From positions 62,001 to 126,000 of the forward strand of contig NZ_BJVK01000003.1 in NCBI RefSeq assembly GCF_007989105.1: DNA of 64,000 nucleotides, in the 5' to 3' direction. Positions 5,912 to 19,470 of the stretch are shown piece by piece. The notes under the pieces are model-generated. The model had not been told where the DNA came from, ran no database searches, and saw only the letters and a list, made by a program, of their open reading frames with translations. The stretch comes from Lentilactobacillus kefiri. GTDB taxonomy: Bacteria > Bacillota > Bacilli > Lactobacillales > Lactobacillaceae. Within the stretch, counting starts at the first letter, position 1. Each line of letters begins with the position of its first letter. A program made the position numbers and the translations under genes.

Positions 5912-7602
<1,691 letters not shown>

Positions 7603-8997: not shown

Positions 8998-9087
8998 GAT
9001 CATAATCTCCTATCCGAATTTTATTGAAAATAATTGCAAAACAATATGTGAAACGGAACCACCACCTCCTAAAGTGAACTGCTTATT

Positions 9088-11454
9088 TTATTCAAACTTA
9101 CGAGTTGTAAGATCAAATAATGCTTTATCTTTATTACTGTTCAAGGTCTGACCATCATCCAAGAAGATATATTCTTGGATATATGGAGCAAAACTTTGAA
9201 TTTCATAATGTTCGTCAACAAGTTTTTTCACACGTCCATTGACGGCTGTCAGGCCTTTTTCCTTATCCTTGTAGATATAAGTCTTTTGACCAAATCCATT
9301 GAGGAAGGCAACCAATTCTTCACCCATATCCCAGTCATCTTCGCCGGTATAACCATCTGGGAACAAACGGGCAAAAATGCCGCCGTCCGAAGCGAAGATT
9401 GATTGGCCAAATCGGTTTCTGGAAAGATCCGGCCGGTTCAGGTTGGGACCCGCAATACTGTATGTTGAGGCGGCTTCGCCAGGCTTCAGCATTCTGTTGG
9501 TTGCAGTCGCGTTGGAATCATACATGTAAAGAATGGCACCGGTAGCTCGATAAGCAGCTTCCACTAATTCAGGATCCTGAAGCTTCTCACCGGCAATTTG
9601 GGCTGATGCGGCGGTTAAGCCGCCCCACAATGCATGAATCATGTATGACAGGGCTTCCCACCAACGATCAGGGCTTTGTGACCTGAAGTCATTACTGTAC
9701 CCGATGTTGGCTTTCAGCAACTCACCGTAGGTCATTGCCGCGTGAACGTTGCCGGTTAAAGCAAGGGCGCCAGCGGCTGGACCAAACCCAGCGTTATCGA
9801 AGAAATGCTCCGTCATGGCTGCTTCCAAAGAATCACTGTTAGCGGCAAGCCGGTCGGTAACCGACTTCCACGACTTGGATATTTCGGAATACTCCTTGTC
9901 CAGCCCGCTCTTTTGCAGGTCGGCTAACAAGTCTTCAATATAAAGTCCGTATGTTCCAAGCATCTGAGCTTCTGTCTTACCACGTTCATTATCATTGAGA
10001 TCCGGATTAACCCGGACATCGAATACCTGAGCTGCCCATGACAGATAATCATTAGGCTTGTTCAACTTCAGTGATGAAGCTGGGCACTTGGATAAGAGAT
10101 AAAACATATGGGTGATATATTCCAAATCCATCAGGCGGTAAAAGTCGCCGTACAATTTAGCGGGCTTCCTAAAGTCGCCATTTTCAAACCATTTCGGTCG
10201 AACATACTTCACAGCACTTTCTTCGACTTGGGCAATCTGCTTGTCAGCATCTTTAACCTTGTCATCGAGAAGGCATTCTTGAAGAATGAAGGTCATCTTT
10301 CCGATGGATTCACCCTGATTGGATACAGGGCCGAAGCTATATGGCACCTTGCCATCCTTACCGGCATATGAATGAGCTGAAACATAGTTGGCACGATTAC
10401 GAAGCAATTCGTTGATTGAGCTCATGACGTTGAAGACGCCCATATCAACTGTGCCATCGGCAAATTCAAGAATTACTTGATGTTCGCCAAGCCCTTGAGG
10501 CTCGTATACCAGGCGGCCGTTTTCAATGTGGTCGGTCATATCCTGATCAACGATTTGGTCACCATCTTTGTGTCGAACAGAGATCCGTTTCAACACCTGA
10601 CCTTTTGCAAGATGGATGGTGAATACTTGATAAGAACCTTGAGAAATCATTGGTTCAAATGCGAACCGCGGATGGTTATATAATCTGGTAGCAATATCAT
10701 AGAAATCCTTTTGGTCGGTAAATGGCTTCAAATAGAATTCCCAGTTTTTGCTTTCACCGGGTTTAACAACCAGCGGCTTTTGAGAATAAATCCAATCGTT
10801 GTGCGGCCTGCGGTCATCATCATAACCTCCGGCCAAAACAATCTCGTGGAAAAGCATTCCATCCAATGATGGGGAAACATTTTCAAAGAATCGGTTGGTG
10901 TAATCGTTGAAAGTTCCGACTGATAGCACTTCGCCTTTGGTTTGGTAAACACCCATGTTAGGTGCTGTATTATCACGACGAACCGCCGCGAGCTTGGTGT
11001 AGTTCTTTGAAATCTGTGGGAAGACGGCAACGGACTGGTTGGCGTTACGCTTAACGTTCTTGTCTCTGAACATGACATATGCCAAGCTGATCCAAACGCC
11101 CAGATTACTAATGTTAATGTCGTCTTTGCCATTATTTTGAATCGTGAAATTCCATTTAAATGAGTTGCCGATCAGTTCAAACTGTTGAACCAGTGACAGG
11201 TCATCGACTTTGAATTGAATCTTGCTGTGGGTATCATCCCCACTCACTTCAGGAACCTGATCGATACTACGGTGCTTTTGACCATTGACCGTAATATTAA
11301 ATTCGCCAAATAATTTATCCAAGTCATCATATCCGAGTGACTTAAGATAATCAGGATCGATTACCCAGTTCATATTGGATTTATCAGAATTCAACTGGAG
11401 CTTGGTAATCGCTCCACGCTTGTTTTGTTCAACTGTCAGAAATTCTGACTTCAT
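9088..11454 (-). CDS. Uncharacterised large glycosidase-like protein (DUF5695-like)
   Basis: A 788-residue cytoplasmic protein with no signal peptide. The first 300 or so residues are rich in short beta segments (for example LVVKPGESKNWEFYLKPF), as in the N-terminal sandwich of many glycosidases. The rest is mainly helical with aromatic-rich segments (YGDFYRLMDLEYITHMFYLL, SPDRWWEALSYMIHALWGG), as in (alpha/alpha)6-barrel enzymes. It resembles large uncharacterised proteins annotated DUF5695; I am not certain of that label and I recognise no catalytic pair. It lies 22 bp after the GH146-like gene and before the GPH symporter, with a ribosome site AGGAGGC-type before its ATG. An enzyme acting on the same imported oligosaccharide is the reasonable inference. 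Confidence 0.75.
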   Translation of the reverse strand: MKSEFLTVEQNKRGAITKLQLNSDKSNMNWVIDPDYLKSLGYDDLDKLFGEFNITVNGQKHRSIDQVPEVSGDDTHSKIQFKVDDLSLVQQFELIGNSFKWNFTIQNNGKDDINISNLGVWISLAYVMFRDKNVKRNANQSVAVFPQISKNYTKLAAVRRDNTAPNMGVYQTKGEVLSVGTFNDYTNRFFENVSPSLDGMLFHEIVLAGGYDDDRRPHNDWIYSQKPLVVKPGESKNWEFYLKPFTDQKDFYDIATRLYNHPRFAFEPMISQGSYQVFTIHLAKGQVLKRISVRHKDGDQIVDQDMTDHIENGRLVYEPQGLGEHQVILEFADGTVDMGVFNVMSSINELLRNRANYVSAHSYAGKDGKVPYSFGPVSNQGESIGKMTFILQECLLDDKVKDADKQIAQVEESAVKYVRPKWFENGDFRKPAKLYGDFYRLMDLEYITHMFYLLSKCPASSLKLNKPNDYLSWAAQVFDVRVNPDLNDNERGKTEAQMLGTYGLYIEDLLADLQKSGLDKEYSEISKSWKSVTDRLAANSDSLEAAMTEHFFDNAGFGPAAGALALTGNVHAAMTYGELLKANIGYSNDFRSQSPDRWWEALSYMIHALWGGLTAASAQIAGEKLQDPELVEAAYRATGAILYMYDSNATATNRMLKPGEAASTYSIAGPNLNRPDLSRNRFGQSIFASDGGIFARLFPDGYTGEDDWDMGEELVAFLNGFGQKTYIYKDKEKGLTAVNGRVKKLVDEHYEIQSFAPYIQEYIFLDDGQTLNSNKDKALFDLTTRKFE

Positions 11455-11476
11455 GTGTAAAGGCCTCCTGGAATTG

Positions 11477-13657
11477 TTATTTGTTTGCTACCATTGTTTC
11501 AATTTTGTTGATGTTGGCAATGTCGAAGTTTAATCCTTCATAGTCAAGCGGGGTAATCTTGATATTAATCTTGTTCTTACCCTTAGTGGCATCAGCTGGC
11601 AATGGGTAGATGTAGTAGGAATCTTCCGGCCACTCTTCGTTCTTAATTGTTTGAGTGAACAGAACCTTGTCATCATCTTGGATCTGGAAGCTGTAAACAT
11701 CACCATCAAGATAGTCATAGGTAATCTTCAAGTAGTTCTTCTTTTCAGGATCAACAGCCAATGTCCATGAATGGTCTTCATTTACAGGATTGTCACTGTC
11801 GTTTTGAGTATCAATCGTTGTTGCGACTTCTTCTTCAGGAACCTTTACGTAAACGTTGTAAGGGGTATCGGCTGGAATTTCCGGAAGTGATTTGAAGATG
11901 ATATCAGTACCGGAAAGTCTGAATTGATTCTTATCTTCAACTTTAACCAAGTCTGCCAAATATTCAGCAGCTGGTTTTGTGGAAGTTGGTAAGTCTTTAG
12001 TCTGTGCAGCTAATAAGATTGGGCCGTAATAGATGGCAACTCGGTTGAAACGATCAGCAAGGGTTTGGTAGTGAAGTTGGAAATCAAGGTTAACTTTGAT
12101 TTCTGACTTCTTGCCCCAACTGCGTTTGATTGCAACAAAGCCATTCTTTGGTTGAGCACTGACCTTTTTACCATCAACGGTAATAGTGGTTTCTGCACTC
12201 CACTTGGGAACTCGAACGTAAACAGTGAATTCCTGGTCTTTATCTGATTCAACGGTAATGTGGGCAAAATGTTGATCAGGGTAATGTGAATCCTGGGTGA
12301 TCGTGATGCCCTTGTCCTTCAAGTTCAAGATTGAATCGAAGTATTGAGCAACATAAATGTCGTTACCGTCTTCGTAGTAAATTCCGTCAACTAATGTTGA
12401 ATGACGTTCTGTTCCACTACCTACACAGCACCAGAAGCCGCCACGATCGAACTCTTTAGTCGCATTTGGTGAAACACTCAGGTTGTAGAGATATTCTGCG
12501 ATAGCGCTGTCATTATTCTGCTGAGCCATGATGGCGTTGATGAAACGAATCTCGTAGTCATCCATTAAAGTGACATCTTTGGTGTCGGCAAAAAGTTCTG
12601 AACTCAAGTAGTTCAAATCATGTGAACAGCAGCTTTCACCATTTAACTTGGATAAATGCTTGAAGAACATTTCAGGATAATCATATAATTCTGATCCGTA
12701 GTCAGCAGGTGCTGGATATGCAGAACGTCCTGAAATTCCTTTGGTAGGCAATTCATGGCCGGTATGCATCCAATTCATGTAGTTGACAACGCCCTTTTTA
12801 TACTTCTCATCACCAGTGGTGTGATAATATTCAAGCATTCCTTCGGCACAAACCAATTCGGTGTTTGAGTGGCATGAGTAATAGCCTAATTCATCATCGT
12901 TATTGATAAGCATGTCACGGAACCATTTACGATCAAACTTTTCAGCAAGGTCAAAGACATCCTGTTCTTTCTTGCCAGTCATTTCGTAAAGTCTCAATAG
13001 TGTTCGATGCATTGCACCAAACTCTTGATGGAAGACATACTGGCCGTTTCCTTGGTACCAGCGGGTATCAATCATTGCATTGATTCGTTCCGGTGTTAGG
13101 CGGGCCATCCGTTTTTCAAAGTAATGAGTCATGTTTTCTGTTAAATCAAGAGCAATCTTGTTGCCAGTAAATTCATATGCGTCCATCAAGCCATCCATCA
13201 ACTTTTGAACAGCATAGTAAGGAACATAGTGATTGCCGTTGAATCGAAGCTTTTCAATATCATCAAATCGCTTTGAAGGTTCTGCAGCTAAATAGCCGGG
13301 GAATTCTTCGAATGTATCAAACTTTTGTTGGCATTCTTTCAGACCATCGACAATTTTATCAACACGCTTTTTCAATTCACGGGCGGTTTCCGTATCATCC
13401 ATATTGTTAAGTTCTACGAAACTCTTGGAAGCTCCTGAGAGATAATGACCGGTGAAATGGCCTCTAAAGAACCAATCCGGTGATTCCCAGATAGTCAAAG
13501 GTGTTGCACCCTTGGTATCCATCCCTGCGTTTTTACGATAGTTGTACAGTAATTGGTCTGTCGTGAGTGAAAGCATCCAATTAATGTTACGATCAAATTT
13601 TTCTTTTAAGGTCGAACCTGGTAAATATTGAATATCATAGTATGATACCGGTTTCAT
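11477..13657 (-). CDS. Beta-L-arabinofuranosidase, GH146-like (DUF1680 superfamily)
   Basis: A 726-residue intracellular glycosidase that should release L-arabinofuranose from beta-linked arabinofuranosides. The N-terminal part NYRKNAGMDTKGATPL and ESPDWFFRGHFTGHYLSG is typical of the GH146 branch. The zinc-thiolate centre of the GH127/146 clan is visible as GESCCSHD (Glu341, Cys343) and FWCCVGSGTE (Cys410-Cys411; one of these is the cysteine nucleophile by analogy with GH127). The ATG follows AGGACG-type pairing upstream. It heads an operon with the 788-residue protein and the GPH symporter. A cre-like site lies 49 bp upstream, and an AraC gene is divergent at 13993. It is distinct from, and only distantly similar to, the second enzyme at 15040-17007. 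Confidence 0.9.
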   Translation of the reverse strand: MKPVSYYDIQYLPGSTLKEKFDRNINWMLSLTTDQLLYNYRKNAGMDTKGATPLTIWESPDWFFRGHFTGHYLSGASKSFVELNNMDDTETARELKKRVDKIVDGLKECQQKFDTFEEFPGYLAAEPSKRFDDIEKLRFNGNHYVPYYAVQKLMDGLMDAYEFTGNKIALDLTENMTHYFEKRMARLTPERINAMIDTRWYQGNGQYVFHQEFGAMHRTLLRLYEMTGKKEQDVFDLAEKFDRKWFRDMLINNDDELGYYSCHSNTELVCAEGMLEYYHTTGDEKYKKGVVNYMNWMHTGHELPTKGISGRSAYPAPADYGSELYDYPEMFFKHLSKLNGESCCSHDLNYLSSELFADTKDVTLMDDYEIRFINAIMAQQNNDSAIAEYLYNLSVSPNATKEFDRGGFWCCVGSGTERHSTLVDGIYYEDGNDIYVAQYFDSILNLKDKGITITQDSHYPDQHFAHITVESDKDQEFTVYVRVPKWSAETTITVDGKKVSAQPKNGFVAIKRSWGKKSEIKVNLDFQLHYQTLADRFNRVAIYYGPILLAAQTKDLPTSTKPAAEYLADLVKVEDKNQFRLSGTDIIFKSLPEIPADTPYNVYVKVPEEEVATTIDTQNDSDNPVNEDHSWTLAVDPEKKNYLKITYDYLDGDVYSFQIQDDDKVLFTQTIKNEEWPEDSYYIYPLPADATKGKNKINIKITPLDYEGLNFDIANINKIETMVANK

Positions 13658-13992: not shown

Positions 13993-14928
13993 ATGGTTAA
14001 GGAGTATTTATCGATATCTTGCCTGCCAACACCAACATATATCCAGAGTGGTCATGTTATCTTTAGACCTGGTGAAAGACATCCCAATCGCAAGAATTTT
14101 CAATTTTTCGTTATGATGTTTATGAAACGAGGAAAATTATATATCGCCGAAGATGACAAAAAGTACACGGTCAGTGCCGGCGAAATGTTCATACTACAAC
14201 CGCAGCACCACCATTATTCCTGGAAGCCGATGGATGAAACGACGGAATATTATTGGATTCACTTCACGACAACCGGCAGTTATGTTCAAGCCGCAGAGCC
14301 AAAGCAAGTTCGACCAGTCATCTCAGTTCCGGCAATTCATTATTACACTTCGACGATTACCCTGTTCTTAAGAAAGCAGCAGACGATTCCAAACGAAGAC
14401 ACGGTTATCTCGATGATGAATAAGATCTTCGCCAACAGTCGAAAATCCAACGAAAACCATTCAGATACGACTCAAAACTCAATTGAATTTTGGAAAGCCC
14501 AACAACTATTTCTGGATCTTCTCCAGCTGGTTCAAGTCCAAACGCCGCAGGAGTCTCCAATGGTCATGGTTGCCAATAAGATTCAAAGATATATCGAAGA
14601 TCATTTTGATGAAAAGATTACCTATGAAGAACTTGGTAAGGAATTTCATATTCACCCAAATTCAGTTTCATTATATATGAAGAAAACATTTGGAATTACG
14701 CCAAATAACCTACTGACCAAGTACCGGTTGGAGGAAGCGACTAAGTATTTGCTGTTAACTTCCGATCAGATCAGTACGATTGCTACCAAAGTGGGTTATC
14801 AAAATGTGTATTACTTCTCCATGGCTTTCAAGAAAGGCTATGGCATGTCACCTTCTGAATACCGCAAAAAATACATTAGTTTAAAGCCAAATACGCCAGA
14901 CGATGGGTCTGGAAATCAATTTATGTAA
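13993..14928 (+). CDS. AraC-family transcriptional regulator
   Basis: A 311-residue regulator with an N-terminal cupin-type sensor domain (residues about 10-110, including SAGEMFILQPQHHHYSW) and a C-terminal AraC double helix-turn-helix (about 198-295: YEELGKEFHIHPNSVSLYMKKTFG and ISTIATKVGYQNVYYFSMAFKK). The latter ends in the family signature GMSPSEYRKKY. A TTGGAGG site precedes the ATG. It is divergent from the GH146 operon and most likely activates it in response to an arabinose-containing ligand; ligand and target are inferred from position. A strong bidirectional terminator follows. Confidence 0.92.
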   Translation: MVKEYLSISCLPTPTYIQSGHVIFRPGERHPNRKNFQFFVMMFMKRGKLYIAEDDKKYTVSAGEMFILQPQHHHYSWKPMDETTEYYWIHFTTTGSYVQAAEPKQVRPVISVPAIHYYTSTITLFLRKQQTIPNEDTVISMMNKIFANSRKSNENHSDTTQNSIEFWKAQQLFLDLLQLVQVQTPQESPMVMVANKIQRYIEDHFDEKITYEELGKEFHIHPNSVSLYMKKTFGITPNNLLTKYRLEEATKYLLLTSDQISTIATKVGYQNVYYFSMAFKKGYGMSPSEYRKKYISLKPNTPDDGSGNQFM

Positions 14929-15039: not shown

Positions 15040-17007
15040 TTAACGATTAATATCCTGCCATACACGCATTTGACCTTCGGAACGGTTGGCCCAAGCATAG
15101 TATGGAATGAACGTCATCTTGGCTGGCTTCCATGAAATGTCATCGGTGTAATAGAGCTCATCGCCATCTTCTTGAGCCATCTTGGCATCGGAAGTTTCGA
15201 TAACACCTACACCATCCAACAATGATTTTTCATACTTGTAATCCATCTGTGGCTTGTCGTCCAAACGGTAGTCCCAAAGAGGAGCTTTGTTGTCAGCTTC
15301 TTCGGCACAGTAAACAACTGGTCCACGTTGAATTGCAACTTTGTTCATATCATCTTTTACCTTGGTGTTGGCACGAACAAGCTTAGTATCCATGTCGAGG
15401 CTTAAGGTAATGGTCATTTCAGAATCTGAAACTAGAATGTAAATGATGCCGTCTTGTAATTCAGGGTCAACTGAGTCGCCGTTAACCTTAACGTCATACT
15501 TGTTACGGCTCCAGCTTGGAATTCGGATTCCAAACTTGAAATCTTCTTTGTTTTGGTTGGTAATTGTAAATTTAATATCACCGCTCCAAGGGAAGTTGCT
15601 CTCTTGGTTAACTTCAACACCGTTCTTGAATGTTGTGTCGTTAGCAATGAATTGATGTGACAAGATAACGTCATCGTTAACTTCATACATGTACTTGTCA
15701 ATTGAGGCAAGTAAACGGGTGATGTTTGATGGGCAACATGCACATGCAAACCATGATGAACGACGGGTGTTGATATGGTTCTTACCTGGGTTACCGTGGC
15801 TGGCTCTAGGATCTGCTTCCAATGGGTTTACATAGAAGTAATGTTTACCATCCAAAGCAATTCCACTTAATGCACCATTGAATAATTCTTTTTCAATGAT
15901 ATCACCGTATTGGCCGCTCATACGAGTTTCCATCATTTGCTTAGCGAAGAATACCATTGCAACTGAGGCACAAGTCTCACCGTAATCAGTATCGTTGGGC
16001 AAATCGTAGTCGTAAGTAAATGCTTCACCAGTAGTTGTTTGACCAACGTTACCAGTTACGTACATTTGCTTCTTAACGATGTCTTTCCAAAGACGGTTGG
16101 CAGAATCCATCAATTCTTTGTCATGAGTCAATCGAGCAACATGAGCCAAACCAGTACAGAAGTATAATACTCGAACAGCATGGCCATGAGGCTCAGTTTG
16201 TTCAGTGACAGGCTTGTCAGCGAAGTAGTAAGCATTTCCGATGGTGTCAAGACCAGGGAAGAAGTTACGGTCAGCACCGTCAGCTTTGTTTTGCTTGTTA
16301 AAGAACTCAGGATCCTTACCACGTTGGGTAATGAAGTACTTGGCTAAATCAAGGTACTTCTGTTCATGAGTTGCATCATATAAACGAGCCAAAGCGTTTT
16401 CAATTTCAGGATGTCCTGGAATTCCGAGAATCTTACCTTCGCCAGTTCCAAAATGACTATCGATGCAATCAGCCATCTTTTTAGCAATGTTTAAAGCTTT
16501 TTGGTTGCCGGTAATTGTGTAGTAAGCAACACCTGCTTCAATGTAGTGACCCATTGAATAAAGTTCGTGTGATTGTTGAAGACGCTTAAACTTACGTTCT
16601 GGCATTTCAATTTGGAACATAGTTGAAAGATAACCATCGTCTTCTTGAGCATCAGCAATCAAATCAACAACAGAGTCGGCTTCTTTTTTGAGCTTGTCGC
16701 TTGGCGCATAGTTCAAAACATAAGCTGCACTTTCCAACCACTTGTAAACATCAGTGTCTTGGAATTCCATTCCGAAGAAGTCGCCCTTCATTCGTCCAGC
16801 GGCAATCTTCAAGTTGGCGATTGCGTGACTTTTGTCAGCAGAACCACCAGCAGCGAATGGGTCGTTTTCAACTTCAACATCGTTGTTGTCGTTGATCATG
16901 TCCCATTGGAATGGGATTGAGTCATCAGCCATTAATTTACGATACCGCTTCCAAAATGGTGATGTAATTTTAAGATTATTAATTTGAGTACTTTGTTTTG
17001 TATCCAT
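15040..17007 (-). CDS. Beta-L-arabinofuranosidase, GH127 (HypBA1-like)
   Basis: A 655-residue intracellular enzyme, nearly the length of Bifidobacterium longum HypBA1 and alignable to it from end to end. HypBA1 releases arabinose from Araf-beta-1,2-Araf disaccharides. The catalytic set is conserved: Glu328 in TGEAFTYD (acid/base, Glu322 in HypBA1), Glu344 and Cys346 in YGETCAS, and Cys424-Cys425 in CACCPSN (nucleophile and zinc ligands). No signal peptide is present. The ATG follows AAAGGAG. It lies 14 bp downstream of the MFS transporter gene, so the two form an operon. Plant extensin or arabinogalactan-type beta-arabinosides are the expected source of substrate. Confidence 0.96.
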   Translation of the reverse strand: MDTKQSTQINNLKITSPFWKRYRKLMADDSIPFQWDMINDNNDVEVENDPFAAGGSADKSHAIANLKIAAGRMKGDFFGMEFQDTDVYKWLESAAYVLNYAPSDKLKKEADSVVDLIADAQEDDGYLSTMFQIEMPERKFKRLQQSHELYSMGHYIEAGVAYYTITGNQKALNIAKKMADCIDSHFGTGEGKILGIPGHPEIENALARLYDATHEQKYLDLAKYFITQRGKDPEFFNKQNKADGADRNFFPGLDTIGNAYYFADKPVTEQTEPHGHAVRVLYFCTGLAHVARLTHDKELMDSANRLWKDIVKKQMYVTGNVGQTTTGEAFTYDYDLPNDTDYGETCASVAMVFFAKQMMETRMSGQYGDIIEKELFNGALSGIALDGKHYFYVNPLEADPRASHGNPGKNHINTRRSSWFACACCPSNITRLLASIDKYMYEVNDDVILSHQFIANDTTFKNGVEVNQESNFPWSGDIKFTITNQNKEDFKFGIRIPSWSRNKYDVKVNGDSVDPELQDGIIYILVSDSEMTITLSLDMDTKLVRANTKVKDDMNKVAIQRGPVVYCAEEADNKAPLWDYRLDDKPQMDYKYEKSLLDGVGVIETSDAKMAQEDGDELYYTDDISWKPAKMTFIPYYAWANRSEGQMRVWQDINR

Positions 17008-17021
17008 GAGTTAAAACTCCT

Positions 17022-18362
17022 TTACTTAACGTGCTTGATCCAGAGAATAAATGCTGTACCAACAAGGGTTGTAATGATTGATCCCCAGAATACTAATCCA
17101 TAGCTTCCAGTTGCAGTAACAATCATTGAGGTAGCAGCTGGTGCGATCATTTGACCAGCAGTGTTGGTCAAATTACCAAATCCAACATATTTACCGGTTG
17201 TCTTGTTTTCCTTAGCTTCGGCAGGGATAACATCGATGTTCAAAGCCATATCAACAGCCAAGTAAATACCATAACCAAGTCCAGCTAAAACAACGTATCC
17301 GATAACACCGTTAACTGACTTGAACAACAGTAAACTTACAGTACCAAAGATCATGAACATACCACCAAAAGCAACAGGAATCTTACGTGCTTTCAAACGG
17401 TCTGAGATAGGACCTGAGAATGCAAGTCCAAGTAATGAAACAACTAAAGTAAAGATTGACAACTTGTTCATGGCACGAGCAGCAGCCAATACTGATAATC
17501 CAATATGGTTTTCAAGAATGTAAAGCAAGTATTGGAAGATCATAGTGTAACTAGTCATAACTAAGAATCGGCCGGCACAAGCCTTGTAGAAATCATGGGC
17601 ACCGTGCATCTTAGGTGGCAGCAATGTAGCAAAGACACCTAATACTGATTCTTCCTTTGGAATAACTGCGTCTTTTGATGATTTTTCTCTTGGAGTAATC
17701 AACAGAACAATTAAACCTGAGAGGGCAATCAAAACACCACCAACGATGAAACCAGTGTTCTGGAATGATTGACCCAAGAAGTATGAACTAATGAACTGAC
17801 CAACTGGGGCACCAATAGATGTTGCACCGAAACCTGCTGATAATGTACCACGAACGTTCTTAGGTGCACGGTCGGCAAGGAAGGCATACATTGGAGTTTG
17901 AATAGCGTTTTGGCCTAATGTGTTAAAGATGTAAGCTAAGGTCAAACTAGTAGTTGATTCGAAAATTCCTAATGAATACAAACCAATTCCGGCAACGAAT
18001 GAACCAACGAAGATCCAAGGAGTCCGCTTTCCGAAACGTGAACGAGTCTTATCAGAAAGAGTTCCCCAAATGTATCCTACAAATAATGATACCAGAGACG
18101 TAACAGATGTAATAATACCGTATGCGGCTGTAGGATTAACAATCCCAACATCCTTAATATGTTGAGGCAACAACACGGCCCCGTTTAAAGTAAAGGCAGC
18201 GTTGTTCAAAATACCATAAATAACAAACGCGATCAGGAAGCGCCAAACATATGACTTTGACCATGGCTTCCCAGTTTCTGGAGAAATTGCATCGGGATCA
18301 GCAGTTGCGGTTGATCCTTGTGTTCCGAATGAATCAAAGAATCTAAAATGTTTTTTTAACAT
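17022..18362 (-). CDS. MFS oligosaccharide transporter
   Basis: A membrane protein of about 446 residues with 12 hydrophobic segments and the cytoplasmic loop GTLSDKTRSRFGKRTPW, which is the motif-A equivalent of the GPH/MFS sugar carriers. Three start codons compete (GTG 18371, ATG 18365, ATG 18362). The last has the best spacing to AGGTGG. It is followed after 14 bp by the GH127 gene and divergent from an AraC regulator. Transport of an arabinoside that GH127 then cleaves is the natural reading; the sequence itself does not fix the substrate. A perfect 16-bp palindrome of cre type lies 30 bp upstream of the start. Confidence 0.85.
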   Translation of the reverse strand: MLKKHFRFFDSFGTQGSTATADPDAISPETGKPWSKSYVWRFLIAFVIYGILNNAAFTLNGAVLLPQHIKDVGIVNPTAAYGIITSVTSLVSLFVGYIWGTLSDKTRSRFGKRTPWIFVGSFVAGIGLYSLGIFESTTSLTLAYIFNTLGQNAIQTPMYAFLADRAPKNVRGTLSAGFGATSIGAPVGQFISSYFLGQSFQNTGFIVGGVLIALSGLIVLLITPREKSSKDAVIPKEESVLGVFATLLPPKMHGAHDFYKACAGRFLVMTSYTMIFQYLLYILENHIGLSVLAAARAMNKLSIFTLVVSLLGLAFSGPISDRLKARKIPVAFGGMFMIFGTVSLLLFKSVNGVIGYVVLAGLGYGIYLAVDMALNIDVIPAEAKENKTTGKYVGFGNLTNTAGQMIAPAATSMIVTATGSYGLVFWGSIITTLVGTAFILWIKHVK

Positions 18363-18391
18363 CATTTCCACCTACAAATATTATATAAAGT

Positions 18392-18407: not shown

Positions 18408-18513
18408 CATTCCTAATGATGCCGCTTTCACAAATCGAAAAAAACTGCTAAAATACTAATTGTGGTATACTTTTATGACATTTCACGTTTTTATTACGAA
18501 AAAGGTGGACAAA

Positions 18514-19470
18514 ATGACGAATTATTATAGTTTTAGCATTGACGATGTGGTGACTTTTATGGTTGGCGGTATTTTTTCCGCTCATAAAGGATGGAAGCAT
18601 AATCCGAGATATCATCATGGTGATTTTGAATTAATTATTTGTACAAAAGGCAAGCTTCACTTACGGGTAGCTAAACAAGAATATACCTTGGAACCCAATG
18701 ACCTTTTGTTGGTCCCACCATATATTCTAATGTCTGGAACCGAGCCATCTCCTGGCGACGTTGAGTTTTACTGGCTGCATTTTATTCTGCCAAAGGACAC
18801 TAAAGTATTTGAAAGTACCAATTCTTTAACATTGTCCGATAAGGATGAAAGTCCAAAACACATTTTAATTCCTCAACAATTCAAAATTCCAAATCTTGAT
18901 TATTTAACGATTTTGATTCATCAGCTTCTTAACACCAACCAAAAGAATGCGTATGACCGAAAGATGGCCAACTATTTCATAACGATGATTATCATGAGTA
19001 TTAGTAAGTTAACGCTCAACCAGCTGGACTTTAAAACCAAAGATACCGAACGGATTAATCGCCTAAAGGAATGGATTCGAACCAATCTTTACAAGTCACC
19101 GACGGTTCAAGACATGGCCGATGTCATGCAGCTCAATCCCCAGTACCTTTCCCGGCTGTTCAAAAAAGTGGTTGGAATCCCGCCAAAACAGTATGTCCTG
19201 CAGCTCAAACTGCATACCGCCCAAGCCTTATTGATCAAAACCAATTTATCAATCAAAGAAATATCTGCGAATGCCTATTTTGAAGGCGAAAAATTGTTCA
19301 TGAGACAATTTAAGCAGTTGACAGGAATGACTCCTAGTGAATACCGGGCTCAATTCGATGAAATTTATCACAATAATCAAGTCATCAGCCCGACTTTGCC
19401 AATTCCAGAAGAGATTACCAAGCATCTCAAGGATGTCCCTGATTTTGGTGAGGCACCGCAGCAAAAATAA
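18514..19470 (+). CDS. AraC-family transcriptional regulator
   Basis: A 318-residue regulator: cupin-like sensor domain in the N-terminal half (HGDFELIICTKGKLHLRV, LEPNDLLLVPPYILMSG) and a C-terminal AraC domain (about residues 190-290: VQDMADVMQLNPQYLSRLFKK, IKEISANAYFEGEKLFMRQFK) ending in the signature GMTPSEYRAQF. The start at 18514 is chosen for AAGGTGG five bases upstream; the frame is open for 18 more codons without such a site. It is divergent from the MFS-GH127 operon and is its likely activator. The C-terminal 30 residues after the AraC signature are proline-rich and of unknown role. Confidence 0.92.
   Translation: MTNYYSFSIDDVVTFMVGGIFSAHKGWKHNPRYHHGDFELIICTKGKLHLRVAKQEYTLEPNDLLLVPPYILMSGTEPSPGDVEFYWLHFILPKDTKVFESTNSLTLSDKDESPKHILIPQQFKIPNLDYLTILIHQLLNTNQKNAYDRKMANYFITMIIMSISKLTLNQLDFKTKDTERINRLKEWIRTNLYKSPTVQDMADVMQLNPQYLSRLFKKVVGIPPKQYVLQLKLHTAQALLIKTNLSIKEISANAYFEGEKLFMRQFKQLTGMTPSEYRAQFDEIYHNNQVISPTLPIPEEITKHLKDVPDFGEAPQQK

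Follow-up and report, generated by a model that had tools for sequence, protein, structure and literature searches.

A Cytoplasmic PL27-Related Protein from an Arabinose-Linked Operon of Lentilactobacillus kefiri as a Candidate Glycosidase

Introduction

The closest described system to the locus presented here is the PL27 family, a gum-arabic lyase family represented by BACCELL_00875 (PDB 5no8/5nok), BT0263 and BACFIN_07013. The products of a PL27 reaction would be rhamnose and an unsaturated uronate. In the literature that we found, only one enzyme of the family has been solved and only one activity is known. BACCELL_00875 is an L-rhamnose-alpha-1,4-D-glucuronate lyase (PMC8377490). A second group of relatives is collected in DUF5695 (PF18951), whose members are mostly larger and often secreted proteins, many of them with signal-like N-terminal peptides; our literature search on DUF5695 returned nothing useful and no known function. 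GH94 and the related inverting phosphorylases also combine a mutarotase-like beta-sandwich with a subsequent helical barrel. Finally, the beta-L-arabinofuranosidases of GH127/GH146 are relevant as operon partners.

Here, we describe P0001, a 788-residue protein encoded within a window of 64,000 nucleotides of Lentilactobacillus kefiri (contig NZ_BJVK01000003.1, positions 62,001 to 126,000). No characterized enzyme of its branch was found in the literature searched, and its sole characterized relative is a lyase.

Results

The features of the locus are listed in Table 1. The reading frame of P0001 is genuine, since it is open over 788 codons and has relatives across Bacillota. The first-pass annotation had placed it between a GH146-like gene, at a distance of 22 bp, and a GPH symporter gene; this arrangement is reproduced here, with the TAA of the upstream gene at 11477-11479, and it recurs in 11 loci. 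Cotranscription of the three genes, which had been concluded from this arrangement, is likely but not proven: the strong hairpin comes after the symporter gene, and a weak 7-pair terminator-like stem at 9050-9068 (-) separates the P0001 gene from the symporter gene. This stem could attenuate symporter expression. The best solved relative of the upstream product is 5opj (E 6.9e-40), which we take to be the GH146 enzyme BT0349. A second arabinoside cluster is also present in the window, consisting of a GH127 gene at 15040-17007 (-), an MFS transporter gene at 17022-18371 (-) and an AraC regulator gene at 18460-19470 (+). Its GH127 is of a close HypBA1 type (E 2.5e-219 to 3wkw). The cluster as a whole suggests that beta-L-arabinobiose derived from hydroxyproline-rich proteins of plants is used.

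Table 1. Coordinates of the P0001 operon and of the domains and conserved segments of its product (window positions).
Feature	Position	Strand	Evidence or remark
P0001, 788 residues	9088..11454	-	Intact 788-codon ORF, stop codon included; intact relatives exist
Shine-Dalgarno AGGAGG ahead of P0001 ATG	11464..11469	-	
GH146-like beta-L-arabinofuranosidase gene, 726 aa, operon gene 1	11477..13657	-	Pfam GH127 catalytic + middle domains
GPH symporter gene, 466 aa, operon gene 3, 84 bp downstream of P0001	7603..9003	-	TIGR00792 363 bits (cut-off 231)
Strong 20-pair terminator-like hairpin, 3' of symporter	7409..7454	-	
Divergent AraC-type regulator	13993..14928	+	Pfam HTH_18 + AraC_binding
Residues 1-262, N-terminal beta-supersandwich (galactose-mutarotase-like), no signal peptide	10669..11454	-	Model; mutarotases Z 13-14 over 1-247; hydropathy
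Residues 263-346, second small beta-domain	10417..10668	-	Model
Residues 347-723, helical barrel, (alpha/alpha)6 by homology with PL27	9286..10416	-	Model; 5nok Z 33.6
Residues 724-788, C-terminal beta-domain past the end of the PL27 match	9091..9285	-	Model
Residues 435-449, YGDFYRLMDLEYITH	10108..10152	-	R440 common to P0001 family, DUF5695 and PL27
Residues 548-559, TEHFFDNAGFGP	9778..9813	-	Acid pair E549 + D553 (PL27 E537 + E541)
Residues 596-600, DRWWE	9655..9669	-	R597 common to PL27 R593
Residues 646-706, P0001-family insertion, motif GEAASTYSIAGPNLNRPDLSRNRFGQ	9337..9519	-	Largely missing from DUF5695

We collected 37 relatives of P0001 from Bacillota genomes, about 40-94% identical to it, the nearest being those of L. 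sunkii (94%) and L. otakiensis (90%). Among 60 related genomes sampled, 14 carry the gene and all of them are Lentilactobacillus, while wider sampling revealed relatives in other lactobacilli, Enterococcus, Weissella, Bacillaceae, Clostridium and Paenibacillus. Several Lentilactobacillus genomes have a broken or truncated ortholog (L015, L016, L017, and L018), so that the gene seems easily lost. A DUF5695 paralog (about 800 bits) was also located in the genome of the window (G000:C8:46034-48382; L019, L030) and is interrupted by an in-frame TAA. A plasmid search gave no matches.

Single-sequence searches gave little on the affiliation of P0001. The NCBIfam search returned no match, Pfam scored DUF5695 at 21.8 bits, under the curated cut-off of 25.2, and the PDB search pointed to 5no8 (PL27) with an E-value of 0.09, which is too weak alone. 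DUF5695 was, though, matched by 7 of 25 P0001 relatives at E 0.01 or better, and profiles reached PL27 more firmly: 5no8 was found at E 7e-5 with 11 orthologs, at E 4.4e-8 and in three collinear pieces with 25 relatives of the P0001 family only (profile A2), and at E 2.8e-34 over residues 7-628 once DUF5695 members had been added (profile A3). The A2 figure is the cleaner test, as the A3 profile contains DUF5695. Profile-profile comparison (hhalign) of the P0001 family with DUF5695 gave E 2e-25 over 691 columns. The first-pass annotation, reading the sequence unaided, had seen no assignable motif, a view that no longer holds, as the PL27/DUF5695 relationship is detectable by profile search, by profile-profile comparison and in the fold. 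Pfam revealed no sequence relationship of P0001 to GH127/GH146, and neither family is among the structural matches listed for the model; a remote relation is still possible.

The first structure prediction, made with 11 close orthologs, was poor (pLDDT 59), and a prediction with 62 sequences, including Paenibacillus and DUF5695 relatives, reached pLDDT 92 and pTM 0.92. Two PL27 entries rank first in Foldseek (E 2.5e-28; TM 0.69 by query and 0.81 by target). VIA-align superposed residues 4-724 of the model on 5nok with Z 33.6 over 616 residues at 2.5 A, fold and domain order being alike, whereas the best match after the two PL27 entries (Z 14.3) concerns the N-terminal mutarotase-like domain only. 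The outline of a beta-sandwich followed by a helical barrel, which had been drawn earlier from the sequence, is borne out by the model, and in the structure search that had been proposed with it the fold is that of PL27. Together, profile search, profile-profile comparison and the predicted model show that P0001, PL27 and DUF5695 form one superfamily. The hydropathy of the N-terminus (maximum over 19 residues -0.13) and the model, in which the first strand begins at residue 6, indicate that P0001 is cytoplasmic and has no export signal, unlike many DUF5695 proteins.

Residues were compared in 52 family rows, and carboxylates were scanned in 25 aligned relatives. Overall identity between P0001 and PL27 is about 15%, yet R440, E549 and R597 are identical across the P0001 family, DUF5695 and PL27, and D553 is Asp in the P0001 family and DUF5695 and Glu in PL27. 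Nine residues are invariant in 52/52 family rows (D443, Y446, H449, N588, D589, W598, W599, E600, and H607). Four residues, D443, Y446, H449 and W598, set the branch apart from PL27: D443 is replaced by Asn in PL27 and mostly by Asn in DUF5695, and Y446 and H449 are invariant in the P0001 family only, with His at position 446 and Pro at position 588 in DUF5695. A search for invariant acidic residues in the orthologs had been advised by the first-pass annotation, and the alignment points to several of them in the predicted barrel region (382-713), e.g., E382, D443, E495, E549, D553, D589, D596, and E600. A tyrosine has reportedly been proposed as the catalytic base of PL27. Comparison over PL27 residues 378-631 found no PL27 Tyr that corresponds to an invariant Tyr of the P0001 family; at PL27 Y540, P0001 itself has Phe, as do 18/52 family rows. 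The C-terminal part alone, searched toward the last 63 PL27 residues (632-694), gave chance matches only. Considering the insertion at about 646-706, the extra C-terminal beta-domain and the PL27 Tyr residues of the aligned barrel, none of which is invariant, the P0001 family is a separate branch of the PL27/DUF5695 superfamily.

The neighborhood survey covered 38 loci within 6 kb of a P0001-family gene, and its figures are raw counts without a background rate. An AraC-type regulator was found in 36 loci, a GPH symporter in 29, GH127/146 in 14, GH51 in 12, DUF5695 and AraR in eight each, an SBP-ABC transporter in six, LacY and GH43 in five each, AraD in three, and AraA and AraB in two each. 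At least one arabinose-linked gene (GH127/146, GH51, GH43, AraA, AraB, AraD, or AraR) is present in 31/38 loci and absent within that distance from the other seven. With the order of GH146-like gene, P0001-type gene and GPH gene recurring in 11 loci, and the protein about 40-94% conserved across Bacillota, the P0001 gene itself is far more than a chance reading frame. On the tree, the GH146-partner loci that are present form one supported clade (100/99), which is nested in GH51-partner lineages (L041, L044, L050). For this reason, the GH146 partnership is a derived, late trait of one clade, and the general tie is with arabinose use. The earlier proposal of a tie to a beta-arabinofuranosidase operon stands locally, in that clade, but elsewhere the partners are GH51, GH43 or araBAD. 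A scan for additional glycosidases around the loci of Paenibacillus, Weissella and Pediococcus met mostly unrelated genes. The neighboring DUF5695 genes (824-2215 aa; L034, L035, L036, L037, L040, L057, L058, and L066) encode several products with signal-like N-termini, and these proteins may act outside the cell on the same glycan.

Discussion

We consider P0001 to be a cytoplasmic exo-acting glycosidase for an imported L-arabinose-containing oligosaccharide and an uncharacterized sister of PL27, a reading to which we give a probability of roughly 0.55. The GPH symporter would import an L-arabinose-containing oligosaccharide or glycoside, from which P0001, with its putative active site in the helical barrel, would remove one end group by hydrolysis and not by beta-elimination. 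Putative pocket acids such as E549 and D553 would serve catalysis, R440 and R597 assisting. The other type of arabinose would be taken off by the GH146 enzyme, or by GH51 in other species, and the free arabinose would feed into the AraC-controlled araA pathway. That the enzyme works on an imported sugar alongside arabinosidases had already been put forward in the first-pass annotation, probably rightly.

That P0001 is a hydrolase rather than a lyase is what we infer from the pathways of the host. The genome of the window is 99.98% complete; it lacks RhaA and KduI and has no real GH88/GH105, with just an 18-bit GH88 touch in a 743-aa frame, while AraA is present. Hydrolysis is favored by this combination together with the arabinose context. 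The presence of AraA separates little, since it is also found in six of eight sampled relatives without the P0001 gene. Among other carriers, G003 has RhaA, G011 has a KduI-like gene and a weak GH88-like match, and G687 has RhaA, KduI and GH88. Moreover, the Paenibacillus carriers have many GH88/105 genes, which confines the missing-pathway argument to the lactobacilli within the family.

The opposite case, in which P0001 is a true PL27-type lyase, would mean that a fragment of arabinogalactan protein is imported and that beta-elimination at one of its 4-linked glucuronates frees rhamnose or an arabinose cap. Arabinogalactan proteins carry arabinose too, and the closest solved relative, BACCELL_00875, has the same fold and is such a lyase (PMC8377490). 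The acid pair and both arginines do not prove hydrolysis, as they are also kept in that lyase, and they may have a binding or structural role. However, the host is devoid of the uronate and rhamnose pathways, a strong GH88 occurs in just one Lentilactobacillus of that set (G008), which has no P0001 gene, and, over the PL27 segment compared, no tyrosine is kept as an invariant Tyr in the P0001 family. We regard elimination as unlikely, at about one chance in five.

Slightly less credit is given to a scheme in which the substrate is an arabinose-containing conjugate that P0001 cuts at a part other than arabinose, e.g., a galactosyl or hydroxyproline end, and its partners alone release arabinose. 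Such a division of labor would agree with a glycosidase partner that varies (GH146, GH51, GH43) beside a constant set of AraC, P0001 gene and GPH symporter, and with Pediococcus, in which only AraC and GPH lie beside the gene. Nevertheless, AraR or ara catabolic genes adjoin the P0001-type gene at L054, L055, L058, L059, L062 and L067, six loci that showed no other arabinosidase over the same 6 kb, and this suits direct release of arabinose by P0001. A phosphorylase for an imported disaccharide with a GH94-like layout, the other option of the first-pass annotation, is very improbable: GH94 is the next Foldseek group (E 5e-10) and has the domain order in common, but the whole-chain rmsd is around 20 A, only residues 1-261, mainly the N-terminal mutarotase-like domain, fit (Z about 13), and TM is 0.2-0.28 against 0.81 for PL27.

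Returning to hydrolysis of an arabinose-containing sugar, the arabinose gene context and a host without a pathway for the PL27 products indicate that P0001 is probably an uncharacterized type of enzyme that aids the use of arabinose-containing plant sugars. A new family of putative glycosidases is possible and is our leading reading. More tentatively, the branch could be a new glycoside hydrolase family on the PL27 scaffold. It would be specific for an L-arabinoside linkage that is left uncut by GH51, GH43, GH127 and GH146, and the secreted DUF5695 proteins would be its counterparts outside the cell.

The P0001 branch and DUF5695 extend the PL27 superfamily to many Bacillota, in both cytoplasmic and secreted forms, and the present analysis supplies an orthologue set, invariant residues and partners for testing. 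If arabinoside hydrolysis is true, one scaffold would serve both elimination and hydrolysis, and this would help to explain the use of plant arabinosides by plant-associated lactobacilli.
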